A stretch of 30,958 bases of DNA from a virus. The stretch's first letter is position 1. Each line of letters begins with the position of its first letter. The notes below the pieces were generated by a model. It saw only the letters and a program-made list of their open reading frames with translations, searched no databases and was not told the DNA's origin. Shown in pieces: positions 7,129-29,236 of this stretch. The position numbers and the translations under genes are program-made. Location: positions 1 to 30,958 of the IMG/VR virus record IMGVR_UViG_3300025030_002201; one strand, 5' to 3'.

Positions 7129-7928
7129 ACATCGTAGGCGTCATGTGGGCCAAGAACGAAGCGGACATCATCGCGGAGACGATCACCGATGCCATGCGAC
7201 ACGTGGACAGACTCATGATCGCTGATGATGGCAGCACCGATGGGACGTGGGAAATTGTGAAACTCGCCCAGAAGTTCTGGCCCGACAAGATTGAGCACAT
7301 CCAGCAGAAGCCAGACAGATACGACAAGGGGCAAAGACAGGCACTGCTCGACGTTGTGCGACAGCGCTACCGCCCTGACGACACCTGGGTCCAGGTGATC
7401 GAAGCAGACATATTCCTCTTGGACACCGACGTGCGGGCTGTCTGTCAGGCAGAGACCAAGATTGGCATCTCCTGGCAGACCCTCAACGCAGTACGCGCTC
7501 CAGGAACGTGGGCCGCGGTCGATACTTATCCACATTGGACGAGATCAATCCGGGAGGTAATGCCGCTGGTGCACCGCATCGAGGTGATGCTCTACACGTT
7601 CCGTCCACTACCACTACTGCAGTACGACCCCGCCACGTGGCGGCCGTGGCCCCAAGGCTTCAGCCACTACGTGAGCACACCTCTGAAGGAGAACGCCAAG
7701 GAGGCCGACTCCCCGCTGCTCCTGCACTGTGGGTACCGAGGACCGACGCACTTCTACGAGAAGTACAAGAGCATGGGCGACCGGCACACGAAGTACCCGA
7801 CCTGGGATCTCACGACACCTGAACAGATCGAGCGTACGGTCGCGTTCTTCAACGGAGACTGGAACACGGGCGCGTTCGAGGCGAGCCGGAAGGGATGGCA
7901 AGCATGGCTGAAGAATCGAACGGGATGA
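7125..7928 (+). CDS. Glycosyltransferase family 2-like protein
   Basis: 267 residues from GTG 7125, overlapping the previous stop as GTGA. The N-terminus matches a GT-A fold: VMWAKNEADII with a conserved Asn-Glu, then IADDGSTDGT (32-41), the UDP/ribose-binding DDGS signature of GT2 enzymes, and EAD (93-95) at the place of the metal-binding DxD. The C-terminal half has Trp- and His-rich loops (an HCGYRGPTHFYEKY-like segment) resembling acceptor-binding parts of small glycosyltransferases. It would transfer a sugar from a nucleotide sugar to an unknown acceptor: host surface glycan, virion protein or DNA base. Genes for making or altering nucleotide sugars flank it. Confidence 0.82.
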   Translation: MNIVGVMWAKNEADIIAETITDAMRHVDRLMIADDGSTDGTWEIVKLAQKFWPDKIEHIQQKPDRYDKGQRQALLDVVRQRYRPDDTWVQVIEADIFLLDTDVRAVCQAETKIGISWQTLNAVRAPGTWAAVDTYPHWTRSIREVMPLVHRIEVMLYTFRPLPLLQYDPATWRPWPQGFSHYVSTPLKENAKEADSPLLLHCGYRGPTHFYEKYKSMGDRHTKYPTWDLTTPEQIERTVAFFNGDWNTGAFEASRKGWQAWLKNRTG

Positions 7929-10023: not shown

Positions 10024-11084
10024 AGATTTTGGTTACCGGCGCCGGTGGACTCATCGGCTCCTGGACTGCAGAGTACTACAAGAAGCGAGGTGACATCGTC
10101 GTGGGTGTCGACAACTTCGAGCGGTCAGAGCTGCTTGGCCATCACGCCAGCGAGCATCGCATCTACTACAACGCGATTCGGTTGAAGGAGCTCGGCATTC
10201 CCGTGGAGGAGTTCGACATCAGCCAGCCCTCCACGCTGGAGCGACTCGCGGGGCGGCACGGGCACTTCGATTTCATTTTTCATCTCGCTGCGCAGTGCGG
10301 CGTCCCTCCCTCCATCAAGCGACCGCGGCGCGACTTTGAAGTCAACGCGTGCGGCACGCTGAATGTGCTCGAGTACGCCCGAGAGCGGGGCGGCGAGTGC
10401 GGCGTCGTGTACGCGAGCACCAACAAGGTGTACCCGATCCACGCTGGGTGGGAGCGAGAGGACGGGCGCTGGCGCTGGACCGACAAGAAGCTCCACAAGT
10501 TCGGCTGGCCCGTCGAGGGCATGAACTCCGACCTCTGCCGTGGTACGCGTACCCCCTACGGGACCAGCAAGTACACGGGAGATCTCTACTGCCAGGAGTA
10601 CGCGCAGCTCTACAACCTCCGCGTCGGTGTGTTCCGAATGAGTTGCATCGTAGGCGAGCATCAACTCTCCTACCAAGAACAGGGCTGGGTGACGTGGTTC
10701 GCCCTAGCCAATTCCCAGTCCCGAGAAGATGTGCGCGTGTTCGGGGACGGACAGCAGGTGCGCGATGTGCTTCATGTATCCGATGTGGTCAGCGCTTACG
10801 ACGCCTTCGTGAGATCCCCGCATCGTCATGGTGTATGGAACCTGGGGGGAGGGCCCAATCAGGCTACCAGCGTCAATGAGTGTCTACTCGCGCTGCAGGA
10901 AGCGGCGGGAAAGAAGTTCAAGGAAGTCTCCTACGAAGACTGGCGCGAGAGTGATCAGCGCTGTTACACGAGTGACATCCGACCCGTCATGCGCGACTTG
11001 AAGTGGCGCGCGAGCGTGAAGCTTGATGAAATCTACGATCGTCTTGTGACCTGGATCGACGCTAAAGGTCACCTGTTGGCGTGA
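10020..11084 (+). CDS. NAD-dependent sugar epimerase, CDP-paratose 2-epimerase-like SDR; CTG start
   Basis: 354 residues if started at CTG 10020. That codon lies 7 bases after a perfect AGGAGG (10007-10012), overlaps the previous stop as CTGA, and restores the family-standard N-terminus MKILVTGAGGLIGS. The next canonical start, TTG 10029, would remove the first three residues of strand one and has poorer spacing. Motifs: GAGGLIG (7-13), STNKVYP (about 133-139), Y180/K184 catalytic pair in TPYGTSKYTGD, and RMSCIVGEHQ...QEQGWVTWF, very like CDP-paratose/tyvelose epimerases. Those enzymes interconvert CDP-3,6-dideoxyhexoses for O-antigen. The exact substrate here is unknown. It closes the sugar block. 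Confidence 0.85.
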   Translation: MKILVTGAGGLIGSWTAEYYKKRGDIVVGVDNFERSELLGHHASEHRIYYNAIRLKELGIPVEEFDISQPSTLERLAGRHGHFDFIFHLAAQCGVPPSIKRPRRDFEVNACGTLNVLEYARERGGECGVVYASTNKVYPIHAGWEREDGRWRWTDKKLHKFGWPVEGMNSDLCRGTRTPYGTSKYTGDLYCQEYAQLYNLRVGVFRMSCIVGEHQLSYQEQGWVTWFALANSQSREDVRVFGDGQQVRDVLHVSDVVSAYDAFVRSPHRHGVWNLGGGPNQATSVNECLLALQEAAGKKFKEVSYEDWRESDQRCYTSDIRPVMRDLKWRASVKLDEIYDRLVTWIDAKGHLLA

Positions 11085-12609: not shown

Positions 12610-14022
12610 TTGCCCTTTCGCGAGAAGATTTTCATCAAGGCCCTCACCGAACGGCCTGAGACAGCCCGTCTGATGATGCGCGTCTTCGAGCCTGGCTGGC
12701 TCACGGACGCCCCCCTCCAGCCCGTCCTCGCTGCGATCTACGAGTTCATCAAGAAGACCGGCATCCCCCCAAGCGTGGACACGCTGCGCGAGATCTTCAA
12801 GAAAGAGAACGAGACCTTCTACACCAACCGGATGAAGCTCGTGCTCGACGAAGTTGACGCTGCGACCTCAGCCCCCTCTGACGTTCTCTACGAAGTGGAA
12901 CAGGCACGCTCCCTCGCAGTGACACGCTCGTTCAGCCAGCTCGTCTACAGCGAAAGAATCCGGTCCCTGGTGGATGAGGGCGAGGCGGTCGAGCTGATGG
13001 AGGAGCTGAACAAGTGGCGGCGCGGATTCGAGGGGGATAGCGACGCCGTCGAGATGAACATCCGAGAGGCGATCGACTACCTGATCCAGGCAAGGGCCTT
13101 CGAATCGCACGAGAACATCTGGATCAAGACCGGCCTCCCATTCCTGGACGAGTGGTGTGGCGGAGGACTGCAGAAAGCCGAGACGGGGATCATCCTGGCG
13201 CCAACCGGACAGGGGAAGAGCGTCGTGCTCACCGTCATCGCGCACAACATCGCGAAGCAGCTCGAGCGAAATGTCCTGATGATCACCAACGAGCTCACCA
13301 TGCGACAGGAGGCCGAGCGCTTTCTCTCCCGCATCACGGGCCATGCCCTCCACGAAGTACGCCAGGACCCACTGCACGCCTACCACGGACTCGAGCGCCA
13401 CTGGGCGTCAGGGATGCACAAGCATCTCCGCCTGGTCGAGAAGCTCCAGGAGTTCGACACCGACTACATCGAAGGTCTCATCGCGAAGTACGTGAACCTC
13501 TATGGATGGAAGCCGGACGTAGTAGTAATCGACTACATGGAGCGCATGCGACCAACCGTCAGCGGGGTCCGGCGTGATCAATCGTGGAACTGGCTGAAGT
13601 ACATCGCACAGGACATCGTGCGTATGTCCAAGCGTGGCGGCTATCTGGTGTGGACGGCTGCGCAAGTCAATCGCTCTGGCTACGACGGCAAAGCGGAGAT
13701 GTCGCTAGCGCACGCACAAGGGTCAATGATGCACCTACAGGAAGTAGATTTCATCGCCATCATGCGAAAGGTGCGACAGACAGACCCAAGCTCGAAGATG
13801 GATTTGTTACAATTTGCATGTCGCAAGGCGAGGTCAGCCAAGTCGGATGAGCACACGGTCTACGTCGAGGCCGACCTGTCGCGTATGTACATCACCGAGA
13901 ACGTGAGAACCGAGATCATGCCGGGTGAGATAGCGACAACCAAAAACGGCTTCCCCCTAAAGGACAGCAATGCGAGCCCAACCGTACTTCACGGTGAAGA
14001 AGAAGAGCCGGAACAAGCCTAA
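12610..14022 (+). CDS. dnaB: DnaB-like replicative DNA helicase
   Basis: 470 residues from TTG 12610, immediately after the stop of the UvsW-like gene, with only a weak ribosome site. Residues 1-140 form a helical N-terminal domain as in DnaB/gp41. The RecA-like motor follows: TGLPFLDEWCGGGL (174-187), Walker A APTGQGKS (197-204), the ITNELTMRQEAERF segment (225-238), Walker B VVVIDYMERM (304-313) and the AQVNRSGYDGKAEMSLAHAQGS region, equivalent to the H4 loop that contacts ssDNA. It should form a hexamer that unwinds the fork 5'-3' and cooperate with the primase downstream. The C-terminus is acidic and repeats EEEEPEQ, a usual partner-binding tail. It overlaps the AAA+ gene by 53 bases. Confidence 0.9.
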   Translation: MPFREKIFIKALTERPETARLMMRVFEPGWLTDAPLQPVLAAIYEFIKKTGIPPSVDTLREIFKKENETFYTNRMKLVLDEVDAATSAPSDVLYEVEQARSLAVTRSFSQLVYSERIRSLVDEGEAVELMEELNKWRRGFEGDSDAVEMNIREAIDYLIQARAFESHENIWIKTGLPFLDEWCGGGLQKAETGIILAPTGQGKSVVLTVIAHNIAKQLERNVLMITNELTMRQEAERFLSRITGHALHEVRQDPLHAYHGLERHWASGMHKHLRLVEKLQEFDTDYIEGLIAKYVNLYGWKPDVVVIDYMERMRPTVSGVRRDQSWNWLKYIAQDIVRMSKRGGYLVWTAAQVNRSGYDGKAEMSLAHAQGSMMHLQEVDFIAIMRKVRQTDPSSKMDLLQFACRKARSAKSDEHTVYVEADLSRMYITENVRTEIMPGEIATTKNGFPLKDSNASPTVLHGEEEEPEQA

Positions 14023-15100
14023 GTTTGAAGAGGAGCTTCGCGAACTCGCCTGTGACAAGCGGGTGGCGCTGGACGGGAACGCCAAGTGGACCGTAAAGGT
14101 GGAGTGCGGGCAGTGGGCGGACTTCAAGCGCGAGTCTGTACCCCTCCACCACATGCACAGGAAGCTCCGTGAAGTCTCGATCAAGCTCGTGCTCGAGAAG
14201 CTCGAAGCTGCGATTGGAGAACCATTCACGGTATTGAGCTGCACTCTTGGACACGGCCTAGCGGTGCTCTTCCAGGAGGCCGACGTGTTCTGCGTGTTGG
14301 TGAAGGACGGAGTCACCCTCTACTCGAGCGATGCCGAGATCCTTGATCACCTGGTAAGAGAGAAGGTGATTCCCCAAGTATCCCAGGCGAAGAGCGTGAA
14401 CCTCCTCAACGCCGGTGGCGGCCGAGGGATCCAGATTCAGTTCGCTGGCTGCATCGATCGGCCGTTGAATGACCTCAACTACGCTCCGGAGGTGGCGAGC
14501 CAGATCCGCGACGTCCTCAGCTGGGTCGCAAGCTCGGACCCCTTCGGCCGCATTGTGATCTTCGCTGGGCCTCCTGGTACGGGGAAGAGCTTTGCCGTGA
14601 GAGCCCTCGTCACCGAGACCGAGAACGTCGAGTGGGTGATCGTGCCCTCTCATCTCGTCTCGAGGTTGGCTGGCCCCGACATGGTGCAGGTCCTGCTGGA
14701 GGAACGCGGAGCCGCGGAGGGCCCACTCGGCCTGATCGTCGAGGACGCCGACTCGCTCCTGCGAGAGAGACTCGCCGGCAACGATGAGAACGTGGTGAGC
14801 CAGCTCCTCAACCTGGGGGAAGGTCTCACGGGGGACCTCGCCAACATCCGGATCATCCTTACCACCAACGTGGCGAGGTTGCAGATCGACAAGGCACTCC
14901 TGCGGAAGGGGCGCCTCTACAAGTTCGTGCAGTTCAACGCGCTGGCGCCAGAGAGAGCAGCAGCTCTCTTCAAGACCCTGACGGGGCGGGATCACGAGTT
15001 CCGAGACCCGATCGCCCTCTCTGACGTGTACGGGCTGGCGAACGAGCATGACACCAACGTCAAGGAACCAAGCACTGATGGATTTGGACAATACGCCTAA
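13970..15100 (+). CDS. AAA+ ATPase, possible helicase-associated factor
   Basis: 376 residues from ATG 13970, chosen because AAAGGA lies 5 bases before it although it is inside the helicase gene. Residues 1-160 are an unmatched N-terminal domain. The AAA+ core follows: Walker A GPPGTGKS (200-207), Walker B LIVEDAD (255-261), sensor 1 TTN (294-296) and a probable arginine in LLRKGRLYKF. The core resembles cell-division/protease-type AAA modules more than DnaC. The position directly after a DnaB-like helicase and before the primase suggests loading or remodelling of the replisome, but a protein-unfolding role is equally possible. No protease domain is fused. Confidence 0.8.
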   Translation: MRAQPYFTVKKKSRNKPKFEEELRELACDKRVALDGNAKWTVKVECGQWADFKRESVPLHHMHRKLREVSIKLVLEKLEAAIGEPFTVLSCTLGHGLAVLFQEADVFCVLVKDGVTLYSSDAEILDHLVREKVIPQVSQAKSVNLLNAGGGRGIQIQFAGCIDRPLNDLNYAPEVASQIRDVLSWVASSDPFGRIVIFAGPPGTGKSFAVRALVTETENVEWVIVPSHLVSRLAGPDMVQVLLEERGAAEGPLGLIVEDADSLLRERLAGNDENVVSQLLNLGEGLTGDLANIRIILTTNVARLQIDKALLRKGRLYKFVQFNALAPERAAALFKTLTGRDHEFRDPIALSDVYGLANEHDTNVKEPSTDGFGQYA

Positions 15101-15263
15101 ACCTCCTCCGTCGCTGCCACCGTGTAGGCACAACTGGGCCGAGTCGTACCGGGAGGCGGGCTTCCAAGTGGTCGAGCGCTGCCGCTGGTGCACGGTGGTG
15201 CAGCGTCGAACAGAGTTGCCATACGTGCCCGATTGGGCTGTCCCAATGTCAAGGGTAAGATAG
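15078..15263 (+). CDS. Small zinc-binding protein (61 aa)
   Basis: ATG 15078 is preferred over ATG 15048 because AAGGA lies upstream of it, and the extra ten residues would lie wholly inside the AAA+ gene. After a Pro-rich start, Cys/His residues (CRHNW near 18-22 and CRWC near 37-40) form a plausible four-ligand zinc site, followed by a short Arg/Val/Pro tail. Such minimal zinc knuckles are common in phages, with unknown function. It ends with TAG, and the same frame stays open for 41 more codons. It is the last gene before the long non-coding region. Confidence 0.65.
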   Translation: MDLDNTPKPPPSLPPCRHNWAESYREAGFQVVERCRWCTVVQRRTELPYVPDWAVPMSRVR

Positions 15264-15658
15264 ATAAAACCAGAGTTCGAAGGGTACGCGCTGAAGCTCG
15301 GCGGCGGACCAAAACGCAGGGAGAGACAACCGGCGGTCAACAGGGTGTCAAGTGCCTGGCGGGATGAGCTCCGATTCTCCAGTCGATAAGAAAATGAAGA
15401 AACCTGAAATAGTAATGACGACGTTGATAGAAGTAAGAGCAGAGAAGAACACAGAAGTGAACACAACAGACAAGAATGACGTTTCATGTACAGAGAAGCT
15501 GGTATGACAAAGATCATGAGGAAGGACCTGGGAGGAGAGGGAGCACTGAGGGGAGAACCGCTTCTGTGTTCTTCTCTGCTCTTACTTCTCTCCACTTCTT
15601 CCTTACTCTTTCAGGTTTCTTCCGAAACCTTGAGATATCTAAGAGTTAACCTAAGGAG
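15264..15658. other. 395-base region without a convincing gene
   Basis: This is the only gap over 300 bases in the window. The first 125 bases are GC-rich and in-frame with the preceding zinc-protein gene beyond its TAG. From about 15380 the composition becomes clearly richer in A and T and strongly purine-biased on the + strand. A 62-bp-arm inverted repeat occupies 15396-15622. An 8-bp palindrome, AGATATCT, lies at 15633-15640, and the primase ribosome site AAGGAG at 15653-15658. I see no sigma-70 promoter with both boxes at proper spacing, no U-tract terminator and no tRNA. Position between helicase and primase/polymerase genes makes it a candidate origin or a structured RNA element. Confidence 0.7.
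15396..15622. repeat. Long inverted repeat, 62-base arms, 103-base spacer
   Basis: The left arm is 15396-15457 and the right arm 15561-15622. The inner 29 bases (15429-15457 against 15561-15589) and the outer 14 bases (15396-15409 against 15609-15622) are perfectly complementary. The 19 bases between them match at 13 positions, giving 56 of 62 overall. The left arm is almost all purine and the right arm pyrimidine. Both arms stay in register without gaps, so it could extrude as a cruciform or fold into a long RNA hairpin. No target-site duplication flanks it, which argues against a miniature transposon. Confidence 0.9.
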
Positions 15659-16522
15659 ATGAAGTCCGGGGAAGTTCAGCTGCCCTGCCCGAGGTGCTCT
15701 CATCCCCAGTTCTACTTCAACCTTAGGAAGGGAGTCGGTTACTGTCACAGAGCCAAGTGCGGGTGGTCTCCCAATCGAGTCCAGGTCGAGCAGCTCCTGA
15801 AGGAAAAGGGCCTCCGACTCCAGCTGGACCCAGCCCCTACGCCTCAGGTCGAGAAACGAACAGAGGGGCCGCTAGCCTTCCCTCCTGACGTGGTGCCTCT
15901 ACTGGGATCGGATCTCGTCGCCCACTGCGAAGTGTGTGAGGAGACGGTCCAGCGACTGGAGCGTGATCGTCGCGTTCCCAGAAAGCGTCAGCAGCACTTT
16001 GGGTTCCGGGGCTCCGAGAACCGGATCTACGTGCCGGTGACCGAGAACGGGCAACTAGTGAACTACGTGGGCCGTGTGAAGTGGTGGATCGACTCCGATG
16101 CCCCTCGCTATCAGTACGCACCGGGGGTGACGACGAGTAGCTACCTCTTTACCTGGGATGTCTTCCGAACGCGTGAACAGATGGCCCTGGTAGAAAACAC
16201 CTTCAACGCCCTCTGGCTCCGCCAGTACAACGTGACCACGAACTTCGGTTCCCACCTCAGCGACGTACAGATCGAGAAGATCGCTGAGTCCAGAATACGA
16301 CACGTGTTGATTCTCTGGGACTCAGGCGCCGAGATGAAGGCGGAGAAGGCTGTGAAGGCGCTCCGTCTCCATGGGGTGCGATCGGCATACGTTAGGCTCG
16401 AAGGCCAGCCGGATGGCCACCGAGAAGAGTGTCTCGCTTCGATCATCCAGGGTGGCTTTGAAGCCCTCCCGGGAGATGGAGCGAACCTCGAGTATGTCAG
16501 GAAGTGCGCCTGCGTTCGGTGA
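15659..16522 (+). CDS. DNA primase-like protein, zinc finger plus TOPRIM
   Basis: 287 residues from ATG 15659, with AAGGAG directly upstream. The N-terminal zinc finger has C10, C13, C29 (or H30) and C34, in the CHC2-like layout of DnaG primases. A second Cys pair lies at 90-93. A TOPRIM-like segment follows: ALVENTFNALWL (176-187) carries the catalytic Glu179, and RHVLILWDSGAEMKAEKAVKAL (starting near 214) is the second strand with D221. The canonical DxD at this point is DSG here, so one metal ligand is missing or moved. It would make RNA primers with the DnaB-like helicase. It is shorter than DnaG (about 580) and has no helicase-binding domain. Confidence 0.82.
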   Translation: MKSGEVQLPCPRCSHPQFYFNLRKGVGYCHRAKCGWSPNRVQVEQLLKEKGLRLQLDPAPTPQVEKRTEGPLAFPPDVVPLLGSDLVAHCEVCEETVQRLERDRRVPRKRQQHFGFRGSENRIYVPVTENGQLVNYVGRVKWWIDSDAPRYQYAPGVTTSSYLFTWDVFRTREQMALVENTFNALWLRQYNVTTNFGSHLSDVQIEKIAESRIRHVLILWDSGAEMKAEKAVKALRLHGVRSAYVRLEGQPDGHREECLASIIQGGFEALPGDGANLEYVRKCACVR

Positions 16523-19100
16523 GCGACATCAGTCCTGCGATCCCCGTCTCAGGGGCAACCCACTGTGTGGCCTCGGTCAGCTCGAGGGCAGCTACCGTCC
16601 TCTCCGCATCCAGATCCCAGGAGCGTCTGCCGAGGAGGTGGTCGCTGGGAGGATCAAGCAGGACGGCTTTGAGCCTCGCTTCGGGATCTTCATCATCGGT
16701 GAAGCGCCTGGGCGTCAAGAGGACCTCGCAGGAATCCCGTTTGTGGGTGATTCAGGTCAGCTGCTGCGGGACATCCTGGAGAAATCCGGCATACCCTTAC
16801 TCGAGACCTTCGTCACGAATATTGTGCGCTGTAAACCCCCCAAAAACAGGGATCCAGGGGCAAACGAGATCAAGGCGTGCCTGACGCACCTGTACTTTGA
16901 GTTCAGAAAGTTCAGCCCTCGGGTCGTGATCTGCTGTGGGCGCATTGCGCTCAAGGCGTTCGGTCTCGATCGGGAGGGGGGCATCACTCATGTCCGTGGC
17001 AAGGTGTACGAGCGCAAGCTCCCCATGTGGGAGGACGGACCGACCTTCAAGGTTATCCCGACCTTCCACCCGGCCTACATCGCGTACAAGGGAGGCGACC
17101 CGAAGCTCAAGGCCCGGGTCACTCAGGACTTCATCCTGGCGCGTCAGGTGTACGAGGGGACCGCGACCTCCGAGCCGGTCTACCAGATCCAGTACAAGCT
17201 CTGTGAGACGGTGCAAGACGTCTCGGCAGCTGCGGGCGAGATCTTAGCCGCCGGTCAAGTCGCGGTTGACACGGAGTCCCCCGATGTCCAGTTCCGCAGC
17301 GTCCCGATGATCACGACGCAGCTCTCGACTGGGAAGAATCAGAACTGGGTGATCCCGTTCTGGCGCCACGACCCTGACGTCAAGTATGGCCAGTGGAAGC
17401 TGCGGGCGCAGTGGGGCGAGGCGGAGCGGGGTGAAGTGTCCACGATTCTCCGTGAACTGTTCACCCACCCCGACCTCACTGTCTTCGCCCACAACGCCAA
17501 GTACGACCTCAACGTGCTCCGTGCCTGGTGTGGGGTCGAGATCGCGGGTCCCGTCCACGACAGCTGCTGCCTGCACCACCTCTTGCACGAGCTTCCACCC
17601 CACGGCCTCGACTACCTGGCGGACATCGAGTTTCAGTATGGCGACTGGGAGGCCCGGGTCCGCAACATCGTCGGCCACGGTCGGAAGCGGAAGAGCTACG
17701 ACAACATCCCTGACGATGTGCTCCATCCGTATGGCGCCACCGATGCCGAAGCCTGCTTCCGTCTGGGCCAGCTCTACCTCAGCCAGGTCCACGAGAAGCC
17801 GCACCTCCGTCGCCTGTACGAGTCCGAGACCTACGCCGCCACCGAGATCTTCCAGGAGAGCGAGTGGAGCGGCGTGCGGATCTCGAAGCCCGATCTCGAC
17901 AAGCTCGCCACCTACTACACCCGGGAGCTCGAGCGCCTGATCGCAGAGTGCCGGGAGATCGTGGGCGATGCGGAGTTCAATCCTGGCAGCCACGACCAGC
18001 TGAAGGACTTCCTGATCAAGGTCGGCTTCGCCCAGAAGATCGCCGCCCCCGCATCGACCAAGGGCTACTCCACCGCCGCTGACGTGATCGCGAAGATCGA
18101 TCACTCGCTCTGTCCGCTGATCCTCAAGTACCGCACCTACCAGAAGATGAAGAGCACGTACGTCGAGAACCTGATGAAGGACATCCAGCTCGACGGGCGG
18201 GTGCGCTACAGCATGCGGATCCACGGCACGACGAGTGGTCGACAGGCGTGCACGATCTATCACCAGATTCCCAGGACGGATGAGGACCTGGAGGAGGAGG
18301 CCGGAGCTGACCTCCGGGACTTGTTCATCGAGGAGGACGGGTACTCGATCATCTACGGCGACTTCAAGCAGGTGGAATTCTTCCTGTTGGCCTACGAGAG
18401 CCAGGAGAAGGCGCTGATCGCTGCGCTCGAGGGCGGTCAGAACATGCACAAGATCTCGGCCGCCGCGGTGCTGAACATCCCGGTTGAGGAATGCGACGAC
18501 TTCAACCGCAGCTCAGTAGGGAAGCCCTTCAACTTCGGGGTCGCGTACGGGTCGATGGGTGGACAGATCGCCCAGTGCAAGTTCAAGAATCCGAGGACCG
18601 GGCTGATCGAGCTGGTGGGGCAGGAGCGGGCGAAGCTCTTTGTGGAGAACTTCCACAAGCGCTTCCCGAGGATCCGCCAGTTCCAGGCTGAGCTCCTGGA
18701 CACGGCGCTCGTGAACGGGTGCATCGTGCGGAGCCGGTTCGGGCGGGAACGACGCCTCCCCGAGCTCATCAGCAGCGACCCCATCAAGCGGAGCCATGCC
18801 GAGCGGGAAGCGATCAACTTCAAGATCCAGTCTCCGGCGGCCTCACTCACTACCAGGACCATGATCGAGATTCGTAAGTGGCTGAAACATTACGATGTTG
18901 GGTATGACAAGGTGCGACTTCTGTTCCCAGTGCACGACGCTCTTCTCTATGGCGTCAGGGACGATTTAGTAGAATGGTTTAGGGAGTGCTTCCATAGGTG
19001 CGCTCAACGCACCATCCCTGAGTACAACAAAAACTTCCTGATGGACGTTGGTGTCGGCCGCTCGTGGGCGGAAGCGGAGAAAAACTCAAAAAAAAAATGA
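16494..19100 (+). CDS. Uracil-DNA glycosylase / 3'-5' exonuclease / family A DNA polymerase fusion
   Basis: 868 residues from ATG 16494; further upstream the frame lies inside the primase gene. Residues 1-220 match family 4 uracil-DNA glycosylase: GEAPG (69-73) with ED at 76-77, PFVGDSG (82-88), RCKPPKNR (112-119), HPA (192-194), and four Cys (C15, C25, C113, C129) fitting its iron-sulfur cluster, though the C15/C25 spacing is wider than the usual CxxC. Residues 255-435 are a DnaQ-like exonuclease: DTE (259-261), HNAKYD (333-338), YGATD (413-417). Residues 440-868 are family A polymerase: motif A DFKQVEF (623-629), motif B from R672 through K677 to Y685, motif C HDA (814-816), where HDE is usual. 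It copies phage DNA and may scan for uracil. A run of ten A ends the gene. Confidence 0.93.
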   Translation: MSGSAPAFGERHQSCDPRLRGNPLCGLGQLEGSYRPLRIQIPGASAEEVVAGRIKQDGFEPRFGIFIIGEAPGRQEDLAGIPFVGDSGQLLRDILEKSGIPLLETFVTNIVRCKPPKNRDPGANEIKACLTHLYFEFRKFSPRVVICCGRIALKAFGLDREGGITHVRGKVYERKLPMWEDGPTFKVIPTFHPAYIAYKGGDPKLKARVTQDFILARQVYEGTATSEPVYQIQYKLCETVQDVSAAAGEILAAGQVAVDTESPDVQFRSVPMITTQLSTGKNQNWVIPFWRHDPDVKYGQWKLRAQWGEAERGEVSTILRELFTHPDLTVFAHNAKYDLNVLRAWCGVEIAGPVHDSCCLHHLLHELPPHGLDYLADIEFQYGDWEARVRNIVGHGRKRKSYDNIPDDVLHPYGATDAEACFRLGQLYLSQVHEKPHLRRLYESETYAATEIFQESEWSGVRISKPDLDKLATYYTRELERLIAECREIVGDAEFNPGSHDQLKDFLIKVGFAQKIAAPASTKGYSTAADVIAKIDHSLCPLILKYRTYQKMKSTYVENLMKDIQLDGRVRYSMRIHGTTSGRQACTIYHQIPRTDEDLEEEAGADLRDLFIEEDGYSIIYGDFKQVEFFLLAYESQEKALIAALEGGQNMHKISAAAVLNIPVEECDDFNRSSVGKPFNFGVAYGSMGGQIAQCKFKNPRTGLIELVGQERAKLFVENFHKRFPRIRQFQAELLDTALVNGCIVRSRFGRERRLPELISSDPIKRSHAEREAINFKIQSPAASLTTRTMIEIRKWLKHYDVGYDKVRLLFPVHDALLYGVRDDLVEWFRECFHRCAQRTIPEYNKNFLMDVGVGRSWAEAEKNSKKK
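19088..19097. repeat. A10 homopolymer at gene junction
   Basis: Ten consecutive A residues cover the last codons of the polymerase gene and the first base of an ATGA. The DUF1353-like frame is open through the tract in another frame, so slippage by RNA polymerase or ribosome here could join the two products. Confidence 0.95.
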
Positions 19101-21094: not shown

Positions 21095-22165
21095 GTGTCT
21101 TCATGGCGGGAGCAGTTTCGCGACGTCATGTCAGCTGGGAAGAAGCCCACGGCTGACTTCACGATGTACTCTGCCACCGATCTCACGGTGGGTAGTTACA
21201 TCCCGTACGGTGTACCGTGTGGGATCCCTCAGCTCGATCTGGCGCTCGGTCGACCAGGCTGGCCGGCTGGTCGCATGGGTGAGATCTCTGGCTTCGAACA
21301 CACGGGCAAGACAAGTCTTGTACTCGCCGCAGCCGGAGCCATGCAGCGCGCCGGTGGTCACGTAGTTTGGGTCGACGCGGAGCGTGCCTTTTCTCCGGAA
21401 TGGGCCGCGGTGAACGGTGCCGACCCGAATGCCATCGACTTGGCAGAGGCAGATACGATCGAAGGTATCTTCGCCTGTATCGAGAAGACCCTTGAGTCGT
21501 ACGCGAAACTCGACGAGGGGCGGCCACCTCTCCTGATCGGAGTCGACTCGGTCACGTCTGTGCCTTCCACGGAGATGTTCGAAAAAGCGTTTGGGGAGGT
21601 ACAGCGTATCGGCACCGATGCGAGGGCGATCCGCGTGGGCATGCGGAAGATCAACTCCAAGATCGCTGCGAGCAAGGCCGTGGTCTTGTTCATCAACCAC
21701 TCCGTCGCGAATCCGGCCTCTCCCTTCAACCCTTCCGTATCGGCTGGTGGCCACGCCCTCAAGTTCAACGCTGCACTCCGCATCCAGCTCGCGCGCCACA
21801 AGAACGTCCAGGAAGAGCAGGACGACGTGAAGGTGTATAGGGGGATGGAGGTGGGCATCACTGTCGAGAAAAATCGTATTGGGAAGACCAGCACGAGGAA
21901 GTTTTCTTGCTTCCTGCTCGAGAACGGCTTTGATCTTCACGAGAACCTGTTCGACGCGTTCCAGCGCATCGACGTCCTCGAGAAGGTCAACAACCGCACG
22001 TACCTGTTCAAGCCCACCGGCACGAAGCTGAGCCGTGGGGAGTGGAAAACGTTCCTGGACGAGCAGTCGAAGGGTGTGCACGAGTCATACCGCTGGTTCC
22101 TTCAGCGCGCAGCAGAGCTTGGGGAGATCGTAAACTATGGCGGGGAAGTTCATCGTTCTCAGTGA
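21095..22165 (+). CDS. recA: RecA family recombinase
   Basis: 356 residues from GTG 21095, with GGAGGT 4 bases upstream. ATG 21128 is a weaker alternative. Walker A is GFEHTGKT (66-73), the WVDAERAFSPEWA segment (92-104) contains the RecA catalytic Glu (E96), and Walker B is LLIGVDSV (146-153), followed by the VLFINHSV strand and a Gly-rich loop (SAGGHALKF) equivalent to loop L2. The DAE pattern places it nearer bacterial RecA than phage UvsX or Sak4. It forms ATP-dependent filaments on ssDNA for strand exchange and recombination-dependent replication, with SSB upstream and SbcCD downstream. Expression may be controlled by the hairpin in front. The stop lies within the SbcD gene. Confidence 0.93.
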   Translation: MSSWREQFRDVMSAGKKPTADFTMYSATDLTVGSYIPYGVPCGIPQLDLALGRPGWPAGRMGEISGFEHTGKTSLVLAAAGAMQRAGGHVVWVDAERAFSPEWAAVNGADPNAIDLAEADTIEGIFACIEKTLESYAKLDEGRPPLLIGVDSVTSVPSTEMFEKAFGEVQRIGTDARAIRVGMRKINSKIAASKAVVLFINHSVANPASPFNPSVSAGGHALKFNAALRIQLARHKNVQEEQDDVKVYRGMEVGITVEKNRIGKTSTRKFSCFLLENGFDLHENLFDAFQRIDVLEKVNNRTYLFKPTGTKLSRGEWKTFLDEQSKGVHESYRWFLQRAAELGEIVNYGGEVHRSQ

Positions 22166-23213
22166 CATTCACCTGAACCTCTGGGGGTACGGTGATCCTG
22201 AGGAGCGACTCGACGATCAGATCTACGCGATCGAGGTCGTGATGGGGCGAGCGGTGGAAGAGGACGTCGATGCGGTCCTCTGGACAGGCGACATCTTCCA
22301 CACCCAAGGCCAGGTCCACACCCAGGTGTTGCGGGCTCTCTACGGGGTCCTCTCGCCGTTCCGGAGCGATCTAAAGGACAAGACAGTTTTCTTGCCCGGC
22401 AACCATGACATGGTCTACCGGGACCACTCCAGCGTTCATGCCCTGGACTTCCTGAGTCTGTTTGGCCAGCTACCCATGATGCAGAGCAGCATATGGGGGG
22501 GGCCGATCAACATCCCAAACATGCCGCAGATCTGGGCCTTCCCCTACACCGACCTTCATGACCAGCTGGCTCGATGGCTCGATCTCTTCCAGAACCGGGA
22601 CCACGACCTGCTGCTCCTTCATCAGGGTGTCCGCAACGTCGAGTTCAAGTCCAGGGGCTTCGTTCTCGACGAGGGCCTCTCCGCAAGCATGATCCCTCCG
22701 GGCGTGTTCCACGCCTTCGTTGGTCATTGTCACTCGATGCGCAGGGTCTCCTCCAACATGACCGTGCCTGGCGCGCTCCAGCAGCACAACTTCGGGGACG
22801 TGGGGGACCCAAGAGGATTTCTGCTTGTGGAGTACAACGAGAGCGGTCTCACCTTCCAGCATATCCCGGTGGGTAACACTCGCTTCATCGACATCCCATA
22901 CACCGACGATCTTCCCTCGCTGGTTGACCAGATCAACGGTGAACGCGTTGACCTACCAAACGAGTTCATCCGCATCAGCAACGTGCCGGTGTCGAAGGTG
23001 GACGAGGTTCGCGCCTGGACGAAGGACGTGGGGGGGAACGATCTCAAGATCACCACACGGGATGACGTGCATGTCCCACTGCGTGTGCAGCAGCACGAGA
23101 TCGGCGACATCGAGTCCTTGCTCACCCGCTTTGCAAAGGAGAACGACCTGGGGCAGGACCTCCTCAAGGTGGGCTACGAGATCCTGAAGGGAGCTGAGGG
23201 TGGAGTTTCTTGA
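22137..23213 (+). CDS. sbcD: SbcD/gp47-like nuclease (metallophosphoesterase)
   Basis: 358 residues from ATG 22137, overlapping recA by 29 bases with GGGGAG in front. Phosphoesterase motifs in order: DIH (10-12), TGDIF (50-54), LPGNHD (86-91), the LLHQG segment (about residue 160) and GHCHS (about 199-203), supplying the two-metal site. Residues 270-358 are the capping/partner-binding part. With SbcC it forms the Mre11-Rad50 type complex (gp47/gp46 in T4), which trims double-strand ends and hairpins for recombination. The start of SbcC overlaps its stop by 14 bases, matching a two-subunit complex. Confidence 0.92.
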   Translation: MAGKFIVLSDIHLNLWGYGDPEERLDDQIYAIEVVMGRAVEEDVDAVLWTGDIFHTQGQVHTQVLRALYGVLSPFRSDLKDKTVFLPGNHDMVYRDHSSVHALDFLSLFGQLPMMQSSIWGGPINIPNMPQIWAFPYTDLHDQLARWLDLFQNRDHDLLLLHQGVRNVEFKSRGFVLDEGLSASMIPPGVFHAFVGHCHSMRRVSSNMTVPGALQQHNFGDVGDPRGFLLVEYNESGLTFQHIPVGNTRFIDIPYTDDLPSLVDQINGERVDLPNEFIRISNVPVSKVDEVRAWTKDVGGNDLKITTRDDVHVPLRVQQHEIGDIESLLTRFAKENDLGQDLLKVGYEILKGAEGGVS

Positions 23214-24996
23214 GATAAAGATCGAGAACTTTCTCTCGATCGCGAACGAAACGCTGCGCCTCGACAATCGCGGAGTGCTTCTGATCAGTGGGGAGAACGG
23301 TGCGGGGAAGAGCAGCCTCACGTCGAAGGCCATCGCCTGGGCCCTGTTCGGTCAGACCCTGAAGGGGGTGAAGGGTGACTCGGTTGTGAACGTGACCGAC
23401 CCCTCTGGACCGTGTGGGGTCGAGGTCACCTTCCGCGTTGGGGGCAAAGTGCACACTGCACATCGCCGCCGCAACCCCGCCTCCCTCGAGCTGGACGGCC
23501 AACGCTTCCGCGTCCCCTCCGAGACCCAGCGTGCGATCGAGCAGCTTGTGGGCCGAGATCTCGACGCGTTCATGGCCACGGACTACTTTGGCCAGGACCG
23601 AGCGACGGACTTTCTTGCGATGACGCCTACCTCCCAGATGGAGACGATGGAAGGAATCCTACGCCTCTCACGTCTGGACGAGCTCGTTGTGGAAGCGAAG
23701 GAGAGGGCGGCGCTTGAACGAGCGGGCCTCGAGCTGGACCAGAACACGTTGCGCTCGAGACAGGGGCAGACCGAGGAGCTGGTGCGGCAGATGACTGCAG
23801 CGACCAGCCGATATGATCAGCTGCAGGCTAGTTTGGATTTTCGAGAGGCGCACCGTCGTCAGCTGGACCTGAGGGAGAAGGAGCTGCGCAGATCAATTCT
23901 CAAGGGCCCAGTGGACGAGGCGCTCGTCGACCTTCGCCGGATCGAGCTTCAGCTCGACGAGGTCACCGAGCAGCTGAGGAAGCACGATGTATCAAGCGAG
24001 CACTACAAGGCCCTGTCCATCCAACTGCGAATTGAAGTCAGCAGCTACCGCAGCCAACTGAAGGACATCCAGGACGCGATCTGCCCAACCTGTGGGGGAA
24101 CGATCCAGAAGGAGCTGACGGACCGGTTGCGCGAGGAGCAGAAAGTCCTCCAGTTAACCTACGATAATCTGCTTGGTCGGCAGGCGGGGGTCAGCGAATG
24201 GCTTGGCACGTGTCAGGAAACCCACGTCGCGTTACGCAATCAGAAGATGGCCTACGAGCGTAAGCTCAGCGACAGCAACCAGAACTTCGAGAAGTTTGAG
24301 CAGAGCCTAGCGGAACTCAATGAGCTTCGCGCGACCCAACGCGCTCATGATGAGCGTGAGAAGGCTATCATGCTCGAGTTGGTGGGGATGGTCGACACGA
24401 TGACCAAGCAGCGTACGGATCTGGAGACGATGATGGCGGTGAACGAAGCGGCTTCCAAGCGTGGGCTGCATCGCCTCTCGATGATCAACTACTGGATGGA
24501 CATCTTCGGCAAGACCTTTCGGAACATGATCCTCGAGCAGGCTCTACCCTTCCTGCAGGAGAGGACGGAGTACCACCTGCGCCTCCTGAACAACTCTGCA
24601 CTCAGGGTGAGCTTTTCTACGCAGAAGACGTTGAAGAGTGGAGAGGAGCGTCAGCAGTTCACAGTCACGGCCTTCCGTGACCAGGGTGGTCAGTCCGAGA
24701 TGGCGCTCTCCGGCGGAGAAAGGCAGATCGTGTCCTTTGCTGTGGGCTTGGCGCTGTCAGAACTCGCAGATTCCCAAACTGGCTCCGCATCGAACCTCAT
24801 GATCCTAGATGAGCCCTTCACCATGCTGGACGAAGGGAACTGTGAGGAGGTCGTGCAGTACGTGACGACCGAGCTCGTAAAAAGAAAGGCTACTATCCTT
24901 CTGATCTCGAACGATGACCGCATGAAGGCACTGATTCCAGGGGGACTTCATGTGAAGCGTGGAGACGATGGCAAGTCCCGAGTTGATGGCACCTAG
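23200..24996 (+). CDS. sbcC: SbcC/gp46-like SMC-type ATPase
   Basis: 598 residues from GTG 23200, with AAGGGAG upstream. Walker A is GENGAGKS (31-38). The Q-loop-like DYFGQDRATDFL follows (about residues 128-139). Two coiled-coil arms of about 150 residues flank a zinc hook CPTC (295-298). The ABC signature LSGGERQIV comes near residue 502-510, and Walker B LMILDEPF near 532-539. This is the Rad50/SbcC layout, close in size to T4 gp46 (560). It would join DNA ends through the hook and drive the SbcD nuclease with ATP. A large inverted repeat in the genome could be a substrate (inference). Confidence 0.93.
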   Translation: MEFLEIKIENFLSIANETLRLDNRGVLLISGENGAGKSSLTSKAIAWALFGQTLKGVKGDSVVNVTDPSGPCGVEVTFRVGGKVHTAHRRRNPASLELDGQRFRVPSETQRAIEQLVGRDLDAFMATDYFGQDRATDFLAMTPTSQMETMEGILRLSRLDELVVEAKERAALERAGLELDQNTLRSRQGQTEELVRQMTAATSRYDQLQASLDFREAHRRQLDLREKELRRSILKGPVDEALVDLRRIELQLDEVTEQLRKHDVSSEHYKALSIQLRIEVSSYRSQLKDIQDAICPTCGGTIQKELTDRLREEQKVLQLTYDNLLGRQAGVSEWLGTCQETHVALRNQKMAYERKLSDSNQNFEKFEQSLAELNELRATQRAHDEREKAIMLELVGMVDTMTKQRTDLETMMAVNEAASKRGLHRLSMINYWMDIFGKTFRNMILEQALPFLQERTEYHLRLLNNSALRVSFSTQKTLKSGEERQQFTVTAFRDQGGQSEMALSGGERQIVSFAVGLALSELADSQTGSASNLMILDEPFTMLDEGNCEEVVQYVTTELVKRKATILLISNDDRMKALIPGGLHVKRGDDGKSRVDGT

Positions 24997-26762: not shown

Positions 26763-27260
26763 ATGCAGTGCAAGTCCTGCATGCGAACATTGTCTCTCGT
26801 TGCCTTTTATCCTTCGGTTCAATCGGGACGATGGGGTCAACGGCTCTGCATCGAGTGTTCTAAGGAGAATGCACGTCAACGTCGAGCGAACCCTGAGAAC
26901 CATCTCCAGATCCGCAGTACAGAGATCGCTTCGCAGCTCACGCAGCGAAACCGAAAGAGAAAGAAGAAAATGGGCTGTGATGTAACGGGCAGAGAGATTC
27001 GTTGGCTCTGGGTGTTTCAGAACGGCTTGTGTGCAGACACCGGGGAACCGATGACTCTTTCAGGCAAACGAAAGAGAAAGACTCCACTTCGCACCGCGAT
27101 GTCTGTCGATCGCATTGATCACCATAAGGGGTACGCGAAGGATAACATTCGTCTTGTCTGCCACTATGTCAACATGGTGAGACGAGACCTTCCCTTCGAC
27201 ATTTGGAGAAGTGTTGTAGATAAGTTCGATTGGAAGCGTCTGCTTCACGAGGAGCAATAG
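26763..27260 (+). CDS. HNH endonuclease
   Basis: 165 residues from ATG 26763. The N-terminal zinc pair CKSC (3-6) with CIEC (29-32) forms a zinc ribbon. A Lys/Arg-rich stretch (about 60-70) precedes the catalytic part: LCADTGEPM (89-97), SVDRIDHHKGYAKDNIRLV (114-132, with D116, D119 and N128) and N137, i.e. the VDRIDxxKGY-N-N pattern of HNH homing-type and nicking endonucleases. Such genes commonly sit beside ribonucleotide reductase genes as mobile intron or intron-less homing nucleases. Here it lies immediately 5' of the reductase with a one-base overlap. It has lower GC and an AGA/AAG-rich codon flavour in the middle, hinting at separate origin. Confidence 0.85.
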   Translation: MQCKSCMRTLSLVAFYPSVQSGRWGQRLCIECSKENARQRRANPENHLQIRSTEIASQLTQRNRKRKKKMGCDVTGREIRWLWVFQNGLCADTGEPMTLSGKRKRKTPLRTAMSVDRIDHHKGYAKDNIRLVCHYVNMVRRDLPFDIWRSVVDKFDWKRLLHEEQ

Positions 27261-29236
27261 TGCAGTTTGAAGGTGCTGAATTTTCCTTGAAAGAGAAGTT
27301 CATCGACCTCTACAAGCGCAAGCGCGTAAACTGGGGCCCGCTCGGTACCTTCGTGTTCAACCGCACGTACGCGAGAGAGTTGGAGGATGGGACGAACGAG
27401 CGCTGGTGGCAGACCGTTCGTCGTGTCGTCGAGGGCTGCTATCTGATCCAGAAGCGGCACTGCAAGCAGCAGTTCGTGTTGTGGGATGAGCGCCAAGCTC
27501 AGAAGTCGGCCCAGGCCATGTACGACGCGATCTTCACCTTCAAGTTCCTTCCGCCAGGCCGTGGGCTTTGGGCCATGGGGACCGAGTTCTTGTTCAAGCA
27601 GGGTGGCGCGTGTGTCAACAATTGCGCCTTTATGTCCACTGAGGATCTCGCTCACGATTTCTCAGGGCCGTTCGTATGGCTGGCCGAGATGTCCATGTTG
27701 GGTGTGGGCGTGGGCTTCGATTGTGAGGGCGCCTTCGGCCGGGAGATTCTCCTCCGTGCTCCTCGAGTAGCAATCGGTGAGAGTTTCGTCGTAGAGGACT
27801 CGCGGCAGGGTTGGGTGGCGGCGTTTCGTCGCGTGCTGGATTCCTTCGTGGGTAAGGACACCCTACCGGAGTCCTTCGACTACAGCGCGATTCGACCGGC
27901 TGGGTCCCCCATCAAGGGATTCGGTGGTGTGGCCCCTGGCCCCGAGCCGCTCCAGAAGCTCGTCGACCGCACGCGCATCATCCTCGACGAATACGTGAAA
28001 GAGGATAAGCCAGTCGACTCGCGGCTCATCGTCGATGTCATGAACTTCGCGGGAGCTGCGGTGGTGGCCGGAGGTGTCAGGCGCAGCGCAGAGCTTGCTC
28101 TGGGGCGGCCTGACGACCTCGAGTATATTGGGCTCAAGGATCAAGGCCGAGTCGAAGACCCTACACTGGCAAGGTGGGCTTCGAACAACTCGGTGATCGT
28201 GAAGCAGGGTAGTTCCTATGAGGCGCTGGCCTCGCGTAGTGTCGAGAATGGGGAGCCGGGCTACTTTTGGCTGGACAACGCCAGAGCTTACGGGCGACTC
28301 GCCGATGGTCCCACGAATGCTGACCGTCGTGTCCGTGGTGGCAACCCCTGTCTCGAGCAGACCTTAGAGTCCCGAGAGCTCTGCTGCCTTGTCGAAACGT
28401 TCCCATCTCTACATTCCTGTCTTGAAGAGTACAAGCAAACCCTGAAGTTTGCCTATCTGTACGCCAAGACCGTCACCCTGATTCCGACTCACGACCCACG
28501 CACCAATGCCGTCATGTTCCGCAACCGGCGGATCGGGCTCAGCCAGACTGGGATCGTCGAGAACATCAACCGCATTGGTCTCAGAGAGCACCTGCGCTGG
28601 TGTGATGAGGGGTACAAGGAGGTCCGCAGGTGGGATGACGTGTACAGCGATTGGATGTGCATCCCTCGCTCGATCAAGGTGACTACGGTAAAGCCTAGTG
28701 GCACCGTGAGCCTGCTGCCGGGCGTCACGCCGGGGATCCATTCCCCCCATTCGGAGCACTACATCCGACGTATCCGCGTGAGCAAGAACTCGGATGTCTG
28801 GCAGCACTACCAGAAGGCGGGGTACGAGGTCGTGCAGGATGTGTACGCGGACAACACGATGGTGATCGAGTTCCCGGTGAAGGAGAACAACTTCACCCGT
28901 GGAAAGGACGACGTCTCGATGTGGGAGCAATTCGCCCTAGCAGCTGCGCTCCAGCGCCACTGGTCAGACAACGCGGTCAGCATCACGATCACCATCCAGC
29001 CTAACGAGGCCAAGGACCTGGCCTCTGCTCTGACCGTGTACGAGTCCCAGCTCAAGAGCGTCTCGTTCCTGCCCGTGCGTGGCGACCAGGTCTACCAGCA
29101 GGCGCCCTACGAGAGCATCACGGCCGAGCAGTACAAGGAACGCACCTCGAGTCTCAAGCCTGTCAACTTCGACGCCATCGCCGACATCGACAAGAAGGAA
29201 GAGCGCTTCTGCGATGGCGAGGTATGCACTCTCTAA
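27260..29236 (+). CDS. Adenosylcobalamin-dependent (class II) ribonucleotide reductase
   Basis: 658 residues from GTG 27260 with GAGGAG 5 bases before it; the start overlaps the HNH stop by one base. It resembles monomeric B12-dependent ribonucleoside-triphosphate reductase: the N-terminal redox Cys around C118-C122 (GGACVNNCAF), NPCLEQTL (from 362) with thiyl-radical Cys364, a second Cys pair ELCC (375-376), and C-terminal CDGEVC (651-656), which in the Lactobacillus leichmannii enzyme shuttles electrons from thioredoxin. It is shorter than that enzyme (739), so some insertions are absent. It makes dNTPs without oxygen or a diferric partner but needs cobalamin from the host. No class I subunit is visible. 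Confidence 0.92.
   Translation: MQFEGAEFSLKEKFIDLYKRKRVNWGPLGTFVFNRTYARELEDGTNERWWQTVRRVVEGCYLIQKRHCKQQFVLWDERQAQKSAQAMYDAIFTFKFLPPGRGLWAMGTEFLFKQGGACVNNCAFMSTEDLAHDFSGPFVWLAEMSMLGVGVGFDCEGAFGREILLRAPRVAIGESFVVEDSRQGWVAAFRRVLDSFVGKDTLPESFDYSAIRPAGSPIKGFGGVAPGPEPLQKLVDRTRIILDEYVKEDKPVDSRLIVDVMNFAGAAVVAGGVRRSAELALGRPDDLEYIGLKDQGRVEDPTLARWASNNSVIVKQGSSYEALASRSVENGEPGYFWLDNARAYGRLADGPTNADRRVRGGNPCLEQTLESRELCCLVETFPSLHSCLEEYKQTLKFAYLYAKTVTLIPTHDPRTNAVMFRNRRIGLSQTGIVENINRIGLREHLRWCDEGYKEVRRWDDVYSDWMCIPRSIKVTTVKPSGTVSLLPGVTPGIHSPHSEHYIRRIRVSKNSDVWQHYQKAGYEVVQDVYADNTMVIEFPVKENNFTRGKDDVSMWEQFALAAALQRHWSDNAVSITITIQPNEAKDLASALTVYESQLKSVSFLPVRGDQVYQQAPYESITAEQYKERTSSLKPVNFDAIADIDKKEERFCDGEVCTL

Follow-up and report, generated by a model that had tools for sequence, protein, structure and literature searches.

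The window considered here is the whole 30,958-nt stretch of viral DNA given as positions 1-30,958 of IMG/VR record IMGVR_UViG_3300025030_002201, with every predicted main gene on the + strand. Its longest gap, 395 nt at positions 15264-15658, is found in a replication gene cluster with the order helicase, DnaB-like helicase, AAA+ ATPase, a 71-aa ORF, the gap, primase, and a UDG-PolA fusion (Table 1). The fusion gene (16371-19100) encodes a 909-aa DNA polymerase A to which an N-terminal uracil-DNA-glycosylase domain is fused, and SSB, UvsX, SbcD, and SbcC follow farther downstream. An earlier note, made from the sequence alone, had located the gap between helicase and primase genes; this is right for the primase, but the left neighbours are the 71-aa ORF and the AAA+ ATPase, the DnaB-like helicase lying one gene farther. 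Family searches gave no match to the 71-aa ORF. For the AAA+ ATPase, the best match offered by cultured phages is that in Myxococcus phage Mx1, with 38% over 59% of its length; the resemblance may be taken as a hint of host range and nothing firmer. Elsewhere in the window, an NAD-dependent epimerase/dehydratase-like gene (10029-11084) adjoins the replication genes and a gene resembling B12-dependent (class II) ribonucleotide reductase is found at 27230-29236. SbcD- and SbcC-like genes are indeed encoded nearby (22137-24996), as the same note had pointed out, but such genes are common recombination genes in phages and their nearness to the repeat described below therefore carries little weight.

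Of all 100-nt stretches in the window, the one lowest in GC (36% GC), the one richest in purine, and the one poorest in purine fall in the gap. It had been described as the only long non-coding region; it is the longest gap, but short ORFs lie inside it and its non-coding status is uncertain. Past the TAG of the 71-aa ORF (15261-15263), the frame continues for 41 codons and closes with a TAA (15387-15389) shortly ahead of the repeat, so that less of the gap may be truly non-coding. Stop-codon readthrough or a broken gene are both possible explanations of this open frame (15261-15389). Neither sigma-70 promoters nor intrinsic terminators were found in 15000-15800.

Table 1. Positions of the features in and around the gap, numbered along the window.
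Feature	Position	Strand	Remarks
AAA+ ATPase	13970..15100	+	PF00004, 3e-14; left neighbour of the gap region
71-aa ORF	15048..15263	+	Cys/His-rich pattern; ends in TAG
Left arm of inverted repeat	15396..15457	+	76% purine
Left-arm block with all six mismatches	15410..15428	+	Positions 15410, 15416, 15419, 15422, 15425, 15428
Spacer	15458..15560	+	103 nt, 71% purine; Shine-Dalgarno-like GGGAGGAGAGGGAG toward the 3' side
Short ORF	15486..15662	+	58 codons from ATG 15486 or 52 from ATG 15504; right arm read as LLCSSLLLLLSTSSLLFQVSS
Right arm of inverted repeat	15561..15622	+	Pyrimidine-rich; pairs with the left arm at 56 of 62 positions
Right-arm partners of the six mismatches	15590..15608	+	Third codon positions of ORF 15504-15662
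Small alternative hairpin	15611..15631	+	AGGTTTC-TTCC-GAAACCT, in the present reading of the sequence
AAGGAG and primase ATG	15653..15661	+	AAGGAG abuts the ATG, zero spacing; predicted paired
Primase, 287 aa	15659..16522	+	PHROG 47, 9e-16

The inverted repeat in this gap has two ungapped 62-nt arms, complementary at 56 of 62 positions and including one perfect block of 14 bp and another of 29 bp, on either side of the spacer; position, arm length, matching, blocks, and spacer were all confirmed as previously described. The earlier statement that the left arm is nearly all purine is an overstatement (Table 1), the reverse complement of the right arm reaching 85%. The repeat is by far the strongest local one in the window, the runner-up being a pair of 38 nt with 71% matching, 5.3 kb apart. 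Given the size and composition of the window, the expectation for a perfect 29-bp inverted pair at most 400 bp apart is about 1e-10, which excludes chance as the origin of the repeat. The 5,918 bases of L001, another IMG/VR contig (metagenome 3300025012), are all identical to the window, repeat included; a random one-off assembly error is thus unlikely, although an identical copy yields no evolutionary information. Such repeats are rare: among 122 viral loci (1.43 Mb) of comparable phage regions, only two harbor inverted repeats of at least 30 bp with a spacer of at most 400 nt, namely L001 and the unrelated phage contig L018. The latter (L018:13005-13139) has 53-bp arms with 98% matching and a 29-nt spacer, located between two apparently divergent genes, and in the present reading each arm carries a sigma-70-like TTGATT-17-TATAAT; judged by this motif, it resembles a duplicated promoter directed to both sides.

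With 29-mers from the arms, L001 was the sole other carrier among 2.9 million viral contigs, and with 25-mers no match was found in bacteria and archaea, of which about 85,000 genomes were searched. No meaningful DNA-level relative was found among phages and plasmids. At the protein level, the best hit of a PolA profile among viral contigs, apart from the identical L001, has 28% identity over its length, a primase profile scan gave at best 26% identity, and an AAA+ ATPase profile built with Myxococcus phage Mx1 found no viral relative; a polymerase-domain scan of genomes reached 32-33% identity, again with no close relative. These scans thus gave no relative close enough for an analysis of covariation, the lone homologous copy being the identical L001. 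Two distant relatives, L081/L170 and L168, share this gene order, and in both the helicase gene abuts or overlaps that of primase, leaving neither gap nor repeat at the junction. Searches of the literature turned up nothing that matched the arrangement of the repeat. The repeat is a real, unusual, and lineage-specific structure, of a general kind that is already known.

All six mismatches between the arms fall in a single phase modulo 3, and with the arms in the same orientation each is a T-versus-G or C-versus-A exchange; in the stem, T or C faces C or T, so that every difference breaks a pair and no G-U pair is left. Read outward on their pyrimidine-rich strands, the two arms yield the identical peptide LLCSSLLLLLSTSSLLFQVS, and all six differences are synonymous. 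From the first to the last mismatch, all four-fold codons differ between the arms, while the lone TTA, where the same exchange would alter the amino acid, is unchanged. In simulations, a common phase was obtained in about 0.2% of cases (P about 0.002), a common phase together with synonymy in 0.04-0.06% (P 4-6e-4), exclusively T/G or A/C exchanges in 0.03-0.14%, and phase and exchange type jointly in 0 of 200,000 trials; these simulations were framed after the pattern had been noticed, and the P values are to be discounted accordingly. The codon-phased, synonymous, pair-breaking differences are a new observation and a statistically odd feature of the repeat. Codon adaptation was rejected as their cause, since only the A-to-C changes lead to common codons, the G-to-T changes giving rare ones, as was a DGR-like template/variable pair, the differences not being adenine-specific.

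The suggestion that the repeat forms an RNA stem is strongly borne out by prediction. The + strand RNA folds at -101 kcal/mol (z = -8.2), far below its shuffles, none of 200 being equally stable; the corresponding values are -92 kcal/mol (z = -7.0) for the - strand RNA and -53 kcal/mol (z = -7.6) for single-stranded DNA. The arm duplex is worth -82 kcal/mol, as against -111 to -117 if it were perfectly paired. The uninterrupted 29-bp block of the predicted stem exceeds the regular duplex of about 20 bp or longer that is expected of an RNase III hairpin, and the stem is therefore a chemically plausible target of this enzyme, as far as a modelled fold can tell. Alternatively, a small hairpin could form between the outer right-arm end and the GAAACCT just downstream. 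An Rfam scan gave nothing above the gathering score; the best hit, MIR831 (28.4 bits, cutoff 100), is most likely a low-complexity purine match.

The short ORF includes the right arm, and its stop codon, TGA, shares bases with the ATG of primase in the sequence ATGA (15659-15662). Family and sequence searches gave no relative of this ORF. Its GC3 is 0.46, as against 0.7-0.8 in most other genes, its base statistics are not gene-like, and its Shine-Dalgarno is weak. The peptide is membrane-like, but 23% of shuffled arms give similar hydropathy; a membrane-spanning peptide was consequently rejected as proof of coding, since pyrimidine-rich composition tends to produce one. The arm-to-arm differences in the ORF frame are all synonymous, the comparison being between two arms of one repeat and not between orthologues. 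The matching frame of the left arm is part of a minus-strand ORF of 445 aa, which is antisense to the AAA+ gene, has poor coding statistics, and is regarded as spurious. The most economical account would confine translation to the right arm and have the changes arise in that arm.

Taken together, these features tentatively favor, ahead of the alternatives, an inverted duplication acting at the RNA level in the leader of the primase-polymerase message, perhaps with a translated ORF coupled to primase. It can be hypothesized that the + strand transcript, if it crosses the gap, folds into a long stem with the 103-nt purine-rich loop, which would separate the upstream (helicase, AAA+) from the downstream (primase, UDG-PolA) parts of the message and tune their expression. 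The stem might serve, for example, as a cut site for a double-strand-specific RNase and/or as a barrier to translation, and translation of the short ORF, which crosses the right arm and stops at the start codon of primase, could link the opening of the stem to the translation of primase. Such translational coupling is plausible because AAGGAG directly abuts the primase ATG and is predicted to be paired. The depth of the + strand fold, together with the location of all predicted main genes on that strand, counts for action in an RNA leader, and so do six third-position synonymous differences in the ORF frame. The absence of G-U pairs at the mismatches is what would be expected if changes in a translated arm weakened the stem but kept the peptide, whereas the breaking of a pair by every difference argues against simple conservation of the stem. 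Several points count against the RNA-leader reading: the only other copy is identical and offers no covariation, the short ORF has no homologue, a low GC3, and a weak Shine-Dalgarno, the phase pattern was recognized post hoc, and the gap is missing in two distant relatives.

The main rival, itself a possible if less favored account, is a recent inverted duplication without selected function, in which a polymerase switched templates and made a foldback copy of the left arm, changes accumulating later. It fits with the lack of any further copy or homologue in the viral contigs and genomes searched and with the absence of the repeat from distant relatives, and the recurrence of GAAACCT at 15625-15631, just outside the right arm, could represent the microhomology of a switch back. 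However, neutral drift predicts transitions and random phases, while the six differences share one phase and are all T/G or A/C exchanges (P 3e-4 to 1e-3). Moreover, a divergence of ten percent indicates that the duplication has some age, in spite of which no change has touched the 29-bp block.

A replication origin, which the earlier note had suggested, comes next and is rather doubtful. The gap, AT-rich and asymmetric in its purines and pyrimidines, would then be a region of unwinding, and its hairpin might act through an R-loop or as a single-strand hairpin recognized by primase. The concentration of the compositional extremes of the window at this very place and the genes for DnaB, AAA+ ATPase, primase, and PolA that flank it make the suggestion compatible with the locus. 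On the other hand, no iterons were found at the site, where direct repeats do not exceed those in shuffles, and no DnaA box was found nearby, the sole exact match of the window being at 7526; both absences argue against a classical origin. The cumulative GC skew likewise shows no turn at about 15.4 kb, a weak test where all genes are on one strand, and no such gap is present in the two distant relatives that share the gene order.

The remaining explanations are improbable. One is a dual-coded hairpin, in which the same peptide would be encoded on opposite strands with different synonymous codons, the pairing thereby being weakened, as an invertible or translation-sensing switch before primase; this is a long shot. 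Slightly more remote is a plain invertible switch, in which recombination between the arms would flip the 103-nt spacer and swap the ORF start before primase: both outward frames are open and read as the identical LLCSSLLLLLSTSSLLFQVSS on opposite strands, and a flip would preserve the frame, but the orientation is the same in both contigs, no site-specific recombinase was seen among the genes tested, and the left-arm minus frame is the antisense one with poor coding statistics. Like an invertible segment, a mobile element is unlikely, and the least probable of all is a non-autonomous, MITE-like element with 62-bp terminal inverted repeats, which the compact 227-bp unit, with two such repeats and a GC content clearly below that of the surrounding 59% GC genome, resembles, but whose target-site duplication is absent (the flanks differ) and of which no other copy exists in the window or the collections. 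An RNA linked to a retron or reverse transcriptase was set aside, no reverse transcriptase being found among the identified neighbouring genes.

As a rule, a long hairpin is unstable in a genome. Between the helicase and primase genes of a replication operon, such a hairpin would be a good place to study how a phage balances its replisome components, the codon-phased pattern predicting that the right arm is translated. With regard to known systems, phage replication origins occur in helicase/primase intergenic regions; unlike these, the present gap lacks detectable iterons, DnaA boxes, and a skew turn, while sharing an AT-rich, strand-asymmetric composition and a place in a replication gene cluster. 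Quasi-palindromes made by template switching are likewise known, and are similar as long imperfect inverted duplications that are lineage-specific and without other copies, but the arm differences here are codon-phased and all pair-breaking transversions. Leader ORFs can exert control by translational coupling through an ATGA stop-start overlap. The short ORF is putative, without homologue, and itself one arm of the stem, but it resembles such leaders in ending on the start of primase, whose Shine-Dalgarno is poorly placed and predicted to be paired. Finally, hairpins processed by RNase III are known in phage polycistronic messages, as in the T7 early region and lambda sib. The stem described here is much longer than those, has a 103-nt loop, and shares no homology with them, its cleavage being hypothetical, but like them it is long and imperfect and separates genes that presumably belong to a single transcription unit.
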